Of a stretch of 64,000 bases of DNA, positions 29,393 through 32,534 are shown piece after piece; the stretch's first letter is position 1; each line of letters opens with the position of its first letter. This DNA comes from Geminicoccus roseus DSM 18922 (lineage in GTDB: Bacteria > Pseudomonadota > Alphaproteobacteria > Geminicoccales > Geminicoccaceae): assembly GCF_000427665.1 (NCBI RefSeq), contig NZ_KE386572.1, forward strand, positions 2,442,196 to 2,506,195. The letters run 5' to 3'. The position numbers and the translations under genes were made by a program. The notes under the pieces are model-generated. The model saw only the letters and a list, made by a program, of their open reading frames with translations. It searched no databases and was not told the DNA's origin.

Positions 29393-30163
29393 TCACTGGG
29401 ACATGGCGGCCTGCAGCGCCGCCTGCGGGCTCTCGCCGCTCTGGCGCAGGCGGCGGACCTTGGCCGGGACCCCGGTGACCACCGCATGGTCCGGCACATC
29501 GCGCGCCACCAGGGCGCCGGCGCCGATCACGGCACCCCGGCCAATCGTCACCCCGGAGATGACGATGGCGCCGGCACCCAGCCAGCAGTCCGGCCCGATC
29601 ACCACCTTGCCCGCCAGGCCCGGCTGGGTGCGCATCGGCTGGTCCAGCCGGGCGTCGACCTGGTAGGTGCCGCCGCCGATATAGCAGTGGGCGGCCAGCA
29701 TGGTGTCGTCGCCGATCTCCACGCCGCTGCCGGCCATGATCGTGCAGCCATTGCCGATGCTGACATGGTTGCCCAGGCGCAGCGGGCCTTCCGCGGCGAC
29801 GATGGTGCAGCCCCGGCTGATCAGCACGTCGTCGCCCAGCACGAAGCCGCCGACCGGCGCCACCTTCGCGTCGAGCAGGGTGTCGTCGTCGACCAGCAGG
29901 CGGGCGCCGATCTTCATCTTGAGCGGCTGGCGCAGCACCACGCCCCGGCCGAACACCGCGCTGCCGCCGCACTCGGCGAACAGGCCCTTCCAGAACACCT
30001 TGCGGAAGGCCAGGCCCAGGGCGCCGGGGATGGCGCCGCCCAGGCCCACCAGCAGCTCGTGCTGGAGCAGCTTCAGCCAGGAGCGGCTGCCGACCATCAT
30101 GTCCTGGTAGGTGGCGATGGCGCTGCCCCCTTCCAGCCGGGTCGACAGCGTGCTGCTCAGCAT
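29393..30163 (-). CDS. Left-handed beta-helix (hexapeptide-repeat) acyltransferase
   Basis: Likely O- or N-acetyltransferase acting on a sugar or lipid precursor in the cytoplasm. From ATG 30163 the 256-residue product has a helical N-terminus (LEGGSAIATYQDMMVGSRSW) followed by many hexapeptide turns (for example IGDDTMLAAHCYIGGG and VVIGPDCWLGAGAIVISGV) and the closing VVTGVPAKVRRLR. The frame stays open upstream to an ATG at 30604, which would add seven 21-residue NEP repeats. I prefer 30163 because the family normally starts at that helical segment and the upstream part is a DNA tandem repeat. No strong ribosome site marks either start. Confidence 0.82.
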   Translation of the reverse strand: MLSSTLSTRLEGGSAIATYQDMMVGSRSWLKLLQHELLVGLGGAIPGALGLAFRKVFWKGLFAECGGSAVFGRGVVLRQPLKMKIGARLLVDDDTLLDAKVAPVGGFVLGDDVLISRGCTIVAAEGPLRLGNHVSIGNGCTIMAGSGVEIGDDTMLAAHCYIGGGTYQVDARLDQPMRTQPGLAGKVVIGPDCWLGAGAIVISGVTIGRGAVIGAGALVARDVPDHAVVTGVPAKVRRLRQSGESPQAALQAAMSQ

Positions 30164-30189
30164 CGCGCTGTCCGGGCGCTGCTCGGATG

Positions 30190-30640
30190 CCTCGGGCACC
30201 CGGGTGCCGTAGCCCTTGGGTTCGTTCGTGGAATCCGGCGCGTTCCCGGGTTCGTTTCGCAGCCGGGTGCCGTAGCGCTCGGGTTCGTTCGTGGAATTCG
30301 CTCCCGTCCCGGGTTCGTTTGGTAACGGGGTGCCGTAGCCCTCGGGTTCGTCCGTGTAATCCGGCGCGTTCCCGGGTTCGTTCGGCAGCCGGGTGCCGTA
30401 GCCCTTGGGTTCGTTCGTGTAATTCGCTTCGGTCCCGGGTTCGTTTCGCAGCCGGGTGCCGTAGCCCTTGGGTTCGTTCGTGTAATTCGCTTCGGTCCCG
30501 GGTTCGTTTCGCAGCCGGGTGCCGTAACCCTTGGGTTCGTTCGTGGAAGCCAGGGGACCGGGTTCGTTCGGAGGGCGGGTTTCGAGGCCGTCGCGTTCGC
30601 TCATGCCACGGGCCGCCCGGCGCTCGGGTTCGTTCGTGCA
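30190..30640. repeat. Array of 63-bp tandem repeats with a GGGTTCGTT core
   Basis: Between the acyltransferase and the asparagine synthetase-like gene lies a stretch of about 450 bp made of tandem units. The 9-mer GGGTTCGTT starts at 30218, 30248, 30281, 30311, 30344 (last base changed), 30374, 30407, 30437, 30470, 30500, 30533, 30560 and 30626. Spacings alternate 30 and 33, giving a 63-bp unit with two half-units, and then become irregular. Units at 30407 and 30470 differ at one of 63 bases. Outer units are more diverged. No stop codon occurs in several frames because the period is a multiple of three. In the leftward acyltransferase frame it would encode NEPKGYGTRLRNEPG-type repeats. Confidence 0.93.
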
Positions 30641-30656
30641 AAACCGGCGCGGGCGG

Positions 30657-32534
30657 TCATGCCGCTTCCCTTCGCGCCGGGGCCTGCTCCAGGCCGTCGT
30701 GATGGACCCGCAGCCAGGCCTCCAGCACCGCCATCGCCCAGAGGCGGTGGGAGTGGTTGTGGCGCTTGGCGCGGTGCTCCTCGATCAGGCGCTGCACGGC
30801 GGCCGGCTGGAACAGGCCGCGGCGGCGCACCGCTTCCGGCGAGAGCTGCGACGACACCCACTGCCACAAGGGGCCGCTCTCGCGCAGCCAGTTCTTCATC
30901 GGCACCGAATGGCCGAGCTTGTCCTTGCGGTGATTGATGATGTCGGGAAGCACACCCTCCATCGCCTGGCGGAACAGGCGCTTGGTCCGCTCGATGCCTT
31001 CCAGCTTCAGATGGGCGGGGATGCGGGCGCCGTACTCCACCAGCTCCTTGTCGTAGAAGGGCAGGCGGTGCTCGATGCCGAAGCGGCGCAGCAGCATCAG
31101 CCGGCTGAAATAGAAGGTCGAGGTGGTGGTGTAGTCGGAATAGAGATGCGGCGAGAGGCCGTCGTCGGGGCCGTCATAGCCGTCATAGGAGGCGACCACG
31201 CTGGCGAACGGGTCCTGGCCGCGCACGAGGGCCTGGCCGTCCTGGGTCAGCAGGCCCGGGAAGTCGCCGGGGGCGTAATAGGCGCGCCAGCGGAACGGGC
31301 CGATCGCCTTGGGCAGGCCGGGGGCCGGCAGGATCCGCTTCAGCTTGACCTTGAGGTCGCGCTTCTGGTCGCTGTCGGAAAACAGGTTGAAGGCGCCGGT
31401 CAGGGCCTTGTGCACGAATTGCGGCACCGGCAGGGCGTCATAGGGGGCCAGCAGCTTCTGCGCGGCATAGACCGGGTGGCTGGCCCAGAGCTCGTCGCCG
31501 CCATCGCCGGTGAACACGAACGGGACCTTGCCGCCGGCGGCGCGCGCCACGATCCAGGTGCCCTCGTTGATCCCCACATCGGTGAACGGCACCTCCATCT
31601 CGGCCGACACGTCGCCGACGCTCAAGGCCTCGTTCTCACCGTAGCGCACGGTCTCGTGCTCGGTGCCGAGCTGCTTGGCCAGTTCCGCCGCATAGTGGGA
31701 TTCGTCGAACCCGGCGCCGGCGCAGGAAAAGGCGAAGCTCCGGATCGGCCCGGACTCGTGGCGGCGCAGGAAGGTCGCGGTGGAGCTGGAATCCATGCCG
31801 CCGGACAGCATGATGCCGATCGGGGTGGTGGTCATCCGCCGCACGATCGCGGCTTCCAGCAGCTCGCGGAAGTTGCGGGCGAGCTCGGCCTCGTCGGGGG
31901 CATGCGGCGCCGCGAAGGACAGGCGGTACCAGTGGTGCAGGCTGGCGGCGCCGGTCGCGAGGTCGACGGTCACATGGCCGCCCGGCGGCACCCGGCGCAC
32001 GCCCTTGTCCAGGGTGGCGGTGCCCGGCACGTAGCAATAGGTCAGGAACTCGGCGAGCCCCAGCCCGTCGATGCCGCCTTCCAGCAGGCCGGTCGGGCGC
32101 AGGTCGCGGATCCTGGAGGCGAACAGCACGCCCTCGGGGCGCTCGGCATAGAACAGGGGCTCGGCGCCGAACCGGTCGCGCACCAGCAGCAGGCGGCGCT
32201 TCGGCGCGTCGTACCAGGCAAGCGCGAACACGCCGTCCAGCCCGTCCAGGCCGGCCGGCCCGTGCTGGATCAGGCGGGCCAGGACCGCCTGGGCCAGGTC
32301 GCCCTTCTGCTCGTCCTCGCGGGCCGAGGCCAGGATCGGCCGGCCGGACAGCGCCAGCCAGGAGCCGCTGGCGGCATCCTTCGCCACGCGGTCCAGGGCG
32401 TCCAGGGAACCGACCCGCCAGGGCAGCACCACGGCGGCGACGTCTTCGGCATGCAGCAGGACGTCGTTCTCGGCGCCGCCGGACCAGGGCTGGTCCTGGC
32501 GCCGCGACAGGGCACCGGTCGCACCGAGCAGCAT
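30657..32534 (-). CDS. Asparagine synthetase B-like amidotransferase without the N-terminal catalytic Cys
   Basis: Member of the AsnB family common in exopolysaccharide loci, where it may amidate a sugar acid or another carboxylate. It is 625 residues. The N-terminal half has the class II glutaminase fold (RDRFGAEPLFYAE) and the C-terminal half the synthetase domain with the pyrophosphate loop SGGMDSSS. The residue after Met is Leu, not the Cys nucleophile of MCGI in true AsnB, so glutamine hydrolysis is probably lost or ammonia is used. It starts 1 bp past the glycosyltransferase stop, in one operon with it. Confidence 0.85.
   Translation of the reverse strand: MLLGATGALSRRQDQPWSGGAENDVLLHAEDVAAVVLPWRVGSLDALDRVAKDAASGSWLALSGRPILASAREDEQKGDLAQAVLARLIQHGPAGLDGLDGVFALAWYDAPKRRLLLVRDRFGAEPLFYAERPEGVLFASRIRDLRPTGLLEGGIDGLGLAEFLTYCYVPGTATLDKGVRRVPPGGHVTVDLATGAASLHHWYRLSFAAPHAPDEAELARNFRELLEAAIVRRMTTTPIGIMLSGGMDSSSTATFLRRHESGPIRSFAFSCAGAGFDESHYAAELAKQLGTEHETVRYGENEALSVGDVSAEMEVPFTDVGINEGTWIVARAAGGKVPFVFTGDGGDELWASHPVYAAQKLLAPYDALPVPQFVHKALTGAFNLFSDSDQKRDLKVKLKRILPAPGLPKAIGPFRWRAYYAPGDFPGLLTQDGQALVRGQDPFASVVASYDGYDGPDDGLSPHLYSDYTTTSTFYFSRLMLLRRFGIEHRLPFYDKELVEYGARIPAHLKLEGIERTKRLFRQAMEGVLPDIINHRKDKLGHSVPMKNWLRESGPLWQWVSSQLSPEAVRRRGLFQPAAVQRLIEEHRAKRHNHSHRLWAMAVLEAWLRVHHDGLEQAPARREAA

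Follow-up and report, generated by a model that had tools for sequence, protein, structure and literature searches.

A 21-base DNA word dispersed over the genome of Geminicoccus roseus and locally amplified into a tandem array

The DNA uptake sequences (DUS) of Neisseriaceae and the uptake signal sequences (USS) of Pasteurellaceae are short words dispersed over both strands, in coding and non-coding DNA, and conserved themselves while sitting in permissive surroundings. The neisserial DUS is present in about 2,000 copies and is reported to arise by recombination, since new copies differ from the orthologous sequence at too many bases at once for point mutation, to be strongly conserved and to occupy permissive sites of the core genome (PMC2397512). 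Such words occur at hundreds per megabase, mostly as single copies or inverted pairs. Other small repeats are also relevant here: Rickettsia palindromic elements, which are found in spacers and, in open frame, inside conserved genes; bacterial tandem repeats (VNTR, slippage arrays); and the CRISPR and TIGR arrays, in which a conserved word alternates with variable spacers. We analysed a stretch of 64,000 nucleotides of Geminicoccus roseus DSM 18922 (hereafter the window; contig C5, NZ_KE386572.1, positions 2442196-2506195), in which a sequence-only reading had noticed a tandem array within a glycan gene cluster.

The array is real and the observation was confirmed (Table 1). We found 12 exact copies of GGGTTCGTT and one near copy, GGGTTCGTC, all on the + strand between 30218 and 30634, whereas none of 100 dinucleotide shuffles of the window reached the 20 hits observed when up to one mismatch was allowed. 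The spacings alternate between 30 and 33 bp from 30218 to 30533 and are then 27 and 66 bp, and TRF returned a 63-bp unit with 5.6 copies and 87% match. As claimed, two units differ at only 1 of 63 bases, but they lie towards the start-codon end of the array rather than in its middle, where a recent central expansion had been proposed. Several frames are open, and the leftward one fuses about six 21-residue NEP units to the acyltransferase (seven in the sequence-only reading). The differences between units show no third-position excess in that frame (summed diversity 4.67/3.73/3.2 for codon positions 1/2/3), in agreement with the previous remark that most of them change the residue.

Table 1. 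Coordinates of the array, its parts and the two adjoining genes, numbered from the first base of the window.
Position	Strand	Feature	Support
30623..30643	-	Founder element TTTTGCACGAACGAACCCGAG at the asnB/acyltransferase junction; the one copy also present in the sibling species	Sequence; conserved inside the otherwise diverged junction of the sibling genome
30560..30568	-	Core AACGAACCC, diverged single copy between the founder and the tandem units	
30482..30544	-	63-bp tandem unit 1 (two element cores, half-units of 33 and 30 bp)	
30419..30481	-	63-bp tandem unit 2	1 difference from unit 1
30356..30418	-	63-bp tandem unit 3	
30293..30355	-	63-bp tandem unit 4, with the changed core ACGGACGAACCC (GGGTTCGTC on the + strand at 30344)	
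30230..30292	-	63-bp tandem unit 5	
30167..30229	-	Last, partial unit: one core (30218-30226) running into the conserved acyltransferase N-terminus (EQRPDSA)	
29393..30604	-	Hexapeptide-repeat acyltransferase ORF; the array lies, in frame, between its likely ATG (30602-30604) and the part shared with the sibling	PF00132, E 1.1e-16; sibling ortholog 87% identical
30657..32534	-	Asparagine synthase-like gene just upstream in the same glycan gene cluster	PF00733, E 4.3e-62

The array belongs to a dispersed family. Read on the minus strand, the word is AACGAACCC, and the 5.7-Mb genome holds 206 exact copies of it (98 and 108 by strand) against 12 (6 and 6) for the reversed word used as control, with 73 close pairs against 0. 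We read twenty array loci in full. All copies in a cluster point the same way, the distances within clusters are irregular (mostly 21 to 131 bp), and the alignment of 128 copies gave the extended consensus TTTTGCAC(G/A)AACGAACCCG(A/G)G, with little or no conservation outside it. A Geminicoccus harenae record carries the same extended word (CCAATCTGCACGAACGAACCCGAG). Clusters of the extended element carrying TTTGCACNNNCGAACCC are uniform along the 5.4-Mb main contig (KS p 0.62) and balanced by strand (13/15). Copies were listed on contigs C1 and C5 but none on contigs C2-C4 (about 148 kb together), where about 5 would be expected at the chromosomal density; these contigs are possibly recently acquired replicons. 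The over-representation on both strands is shared with the DUS, but the density, about 36 per Mb or 1 per 27 kb, is far below, with about ten-fold fewer copies, and the same-orientation tandem clusters are not a habit of the DUS, which often form inverted pairs. The host also differs, being an alphaproteobacterium.

Using a home-made gene finder based on codon usage, and thus predicted genes only, we found that 40 of the 52 clusters with at least 16/21 matches are intergenic, many of them between convergent genes. Between co-directional genes, they are about equally sense and antisense (8 versus 10 in this genome, 5 versus 3 in the sibling species). Twelve clusters are inside predicted genes, ten of them sense, and seven in the sibling, all sense. 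This strong sense bias of in-gene copies (17 versus 2 clusters over the two genomes, some of them orthologous) is not predicted for an orientation-blind signal unless the antisense peptide is disfavoured.

We then compared the array with the sibling species (genome G001), the only other genome of the genus among the relatives searched. Its orthologous asnB/acyltransferase junction carries exactly one copy, TGA GCCCGCTCCGGTCCCGCACCGCA TTTTGCACGAACGAACCCGAG GCC ATG, in which the element is identical to the founder copy of the window while the rest of the spacer has diverged. In the window, about twelve more copies lie between the likely start codon and the shared QRPDSA of the enzyme. Copy number also differed at the other shared loci that could be compared: 13 versus 1 at the locus pair L054/L223, 4 versus 2 at the pair L051/L197, and 3 versus 1 in the cysS loop. 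The array is therefore a young, local and lineage-specific amplification. The intergenic alignments of the siblings were too diverged to date individual gains. Slippage arrays resemble the window in the near-identical neighbouring units of 63 bp and in the copy number that differs from the sibling, but between loci only the word is held constant, the spacers being unrelated and of varying length, and pure slippage does not explain the scattered copies inside unrelated genes.

Alignments of conserved genes with their orthologs showed that the word replaces the orthologous sequence rather than being inserted, in all three sense frames and on both strands. The glcD-type oxidase reads GTC GAC GAT TTA CAC GAA CGA ACC CGA TAC GAG CGG where the sibling reads GTC GAG GAG GTG GCG GAG CGC GCC CGC TAC GAG CGG. 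The same was observed against the sibling for htpG and, in antisense, for an amidase, and for leuS against other members of the family, the leuS of the sibling not being found. The frames used include TNEP, HERT and QTN, plus antisense GSFV. In the glcD-type and htpG genes the 21-bp patch is 52-57% identical to the sibling against 78-85% for the rest of the aligned stretch; the amidase is a weaker case (76% against 80%, with 2 gap positions near the patch). Where both siblings carry the word, in an SDR and in cysS, the patch is on the contrary 90-95% identical against 82-86% for the rest. The word forces codons that the genome avoids (TTA is 0.1% of Leu codons, CGA 1.5% of Arg codons and CAA 3.8% of Gln codons), and 12 Mb of codon-random coding DNA yielded a single element at 16/21 or better, against about 12 in-gene clusters in this one genome. 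This is the strongest evidence that the sequence acts as DNA. In the sibling, a RuBisCO-like protein gene (locus L210, 1785-3059) also carries a copy (PGFPTNEPGPYRR) near its N-terminal part, and the conserved YchF peptide PFCTIEPN (locus L279, around 1501) is encoded by TTTTGCACGATCGAACCCAAC, a natural 18/21 match to the element that could be due to chance or could be a seed.

The cysS loop, which gained about 19 residues and carries three motif copies in this genome, first suggested a mobile insertion element, like a Rickettsia palindromic element or a MITE, inserting in frame into genes. The scattered copies in genes and spacers would fit this reading, and the cysS loop and all arrays show that indel-type expansion also occurs; expansion by duplication thus happens in genes too, as in the window. 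However, the glcD-type oxidase, htpG, leuS and SDR copies are colinear, without insertion, and contradict it; only cysS showed added length. Moreover, the 21-bp consensus TTTTGCACGAACGAACCCGAG has no palindrome or inverted-repeat ends, and its flanks are not conserved; its arrangement in arrays is a further difference from the Rickettsia palindromic elements. We consider an insertion element very unlikely. The resemblance to CRISPR and TIGR arrays is limited to the conserved word alternating with variable spacers: the spacing within clusters is irregular, copies occur within genes, searches of Rfam at gathering and permissive thresholds returned nothing, and the predicted RNA folding of the array on either strand did not differ from that of shuffled sequences (z-scores 1.39 and -1.24). 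Searches of phage and plasmid collections found no similar DNA, and three viral contigs with triple cores showed unrelated-looking repeats.

A selected protein repeat, either an NEP-rich N-terminal domain of the acyltransferase or a phase-variable leader, also appears very unlikely. The frame is open through the array into the enzyme, so the NEP peptide may be translated, but the sibling enzyme has no such domain, the units show no third-position bias, and elsewhere the same word is used in other frames, in antisense and between genes. The peptide is thus probably tolerated rather than selected, and nothing suggests that it is what selection sees. Related membrane-anchored proteins of both siblings (loci L324 in this genome and L199 in the sibling) carry NEP copies in a variable linker, at differing places. 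The suggestion of a phase-variable leader for the downstream genes is not supported, since every spacing is a multiple of 3 and gain or loss of units would not switch the frame, and since most arrays elsewhere are intergenic, without preferred sense relative to co-directional neighbours. The interpretation proposed from sequence alone was therefore only partly supported: the preference for a dispersed DNA-level repeat family over a protein domain is well supported, and local tandem expansion is supported by the sibling species.

In 11 arrays, the self-alignment of duplicated units showed the core 87.5% identical against 69% for the spacers, and higher in every array, although BLAST seeding may favour the core somewhat so that the size of the gap is approximate. 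This conservation, together with the shared copies kept with rare codons in two species, could indicate the binding site of a chromosome-organising, silencing or regulatory protein, for which arrays would be high-avidity platforms and single copies lesser sites, those in genes being tolerated or useful. A bipartite layout, TTTG-N6-CGAACCC with fixed spacing, found in 54 of 185 cores in this genome and in 19 of 29 in an Acidobacteriia MAG, would also fit. On the other hand, we observed no fixed position relative to genes or to sense direction between genes, no regional domain on the chromosome, and a quick turnover of sites between siblings. Alternatively, the word could be purely selfish, copied without function or uptake by template switching or short-patch gene conversion from the many existing copies. 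The length-preserving patch replacements with partial match to the ancestral bases, the strong clustering, and the copy number that differs at every shared locus compared are in line with this possibility. However, it needs a mechanism that favours this one word, the dispersal of the same core in other phyla argues for something that recognises it, and the slower evolution of the core inside arrays suggests upkeep after copying. Both remain serious rivals, although we consider each of them rather unlikely, the selfish sequence more so.

Our analysis thus established that the array is a local tandem amplification of a DNA element of about 21 bp, which exists as single copies and clusters across the genome, is read as DNA, is pasted colinearly into genes and is held constant. 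From there we only infer that the element is a genome-wide recognition signal, most likely working like the DUS and USS, with preferential uptake or recombination of the fragments that bear it; this is our preferred explanation, but a tentative one. In this view, copies would be pasted into permissive places, kept intact and, in this lineage, multiplied by tandem duplication where nothing forbids it. Here, duplication would have begun near the one ancestral copy just upstream of the acyltransferase start and stayed in frame because frame-breaking versions would have cost the gene. The element matches the published behaviour of the neisserial DUS in the origin of its copies, their conservation and their permissive sites, but not in density and tandem arrangement. 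The gene for the ComEC uptake channel is present, but this family, which is near-universal (E. coli has it too), was detected in all 11 genomes examined and in 10 of 14 controls. Literature searches on the word itself, TNEP, small interspersed repeats in planctomycetes, Geminicoccus and alphaproteobacterial uptake sequences found nothing describing it. If the signal reading is right, an alphaproteobacterial family, possibly several phyla, would have a genome-wide DNA word that overwrites gene segments without regard to reading frame. It would make directly testable how uptake-type words arise and spread (molecular drive or function), and how often low-complexity protein stretches such as NEP repeats are by-products of DNA-level signals. 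In practice, NEP-rich proteins annotated in these genomes should not be read as domains.

Similar arrays occur patchily in other genomes. Within the Geminicoccaceae, one further genome (G009) has 189 copies (control 8) and three others (G013, G021 and G025) have many close pairs. In a class-wide sample of 289 genomes, the genome of the window was the only one with more than two pairs, and in a sample of 199 genomes from the phylum of an Isosphaeraceae MAG only that MAG had more than one. A scan of 85,000 genomes for triple cores, without control word, returned at least Geminicoccaceae, Ferrovibrio, Planctomycetota and Acidobacteriota, among many hits (Streptomyces, Lachnospiraceae, Cohnella and others) that look like ordinary coding repeats and that we do not retain. 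Whole-genome counts confirmed the enrichment in many of the genomes reached this way, for instance 213 versus 13 and 182 versus 12 in two Planctomycetota and 104 versus 21 and 87 versus 4 in two Acidobacteriota, but these genomes were chosen because they have arrays and do not measure frequency. The consensus flanks differ by lineage, except for the bipartite layout that the Acidobacteriia MAG mentioned above shares with Geminicoccus, and such sharing could be due to descent, transfer or convergence. It is conceivable, although unlikely, that AACGAACCC-type words are a recognition signal shared patchily by Alphaproteobacteria (Geminicoccaceae), Acidobacteriota and Planctomycetota, that is, a self-spreading signal system outside the two families where such signals are well known, in which the word also builds large tandem arrays.

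In the Acidobacteriia MAG VK_bin-0219 (loci L143/L281, L147, L162 and L114), we observed arrays of TTTGAAAAAACGAACCCAG with 21- and 42-bp periods plus scattered copies of TTTGCACGTTCGAACCC, with the same core but a different upstream half; the YchF-encoding sequence of the sibling is close to this TTTGCACGTTCGAACCC form. A MAG titled Bordetella parapertussis (HRS-HS12-bin-180), a label that looks doubtful, holds arrays of AAACGAACCCAA. Finally, Phycisphaerae MAGs (loci L084, L087, L149, L156 and L165) exhibited dense runs of AAACGAACCCAA mixed with AATTCAAACCC, with 10/11-bp and longer steps, a looser relative of the word.
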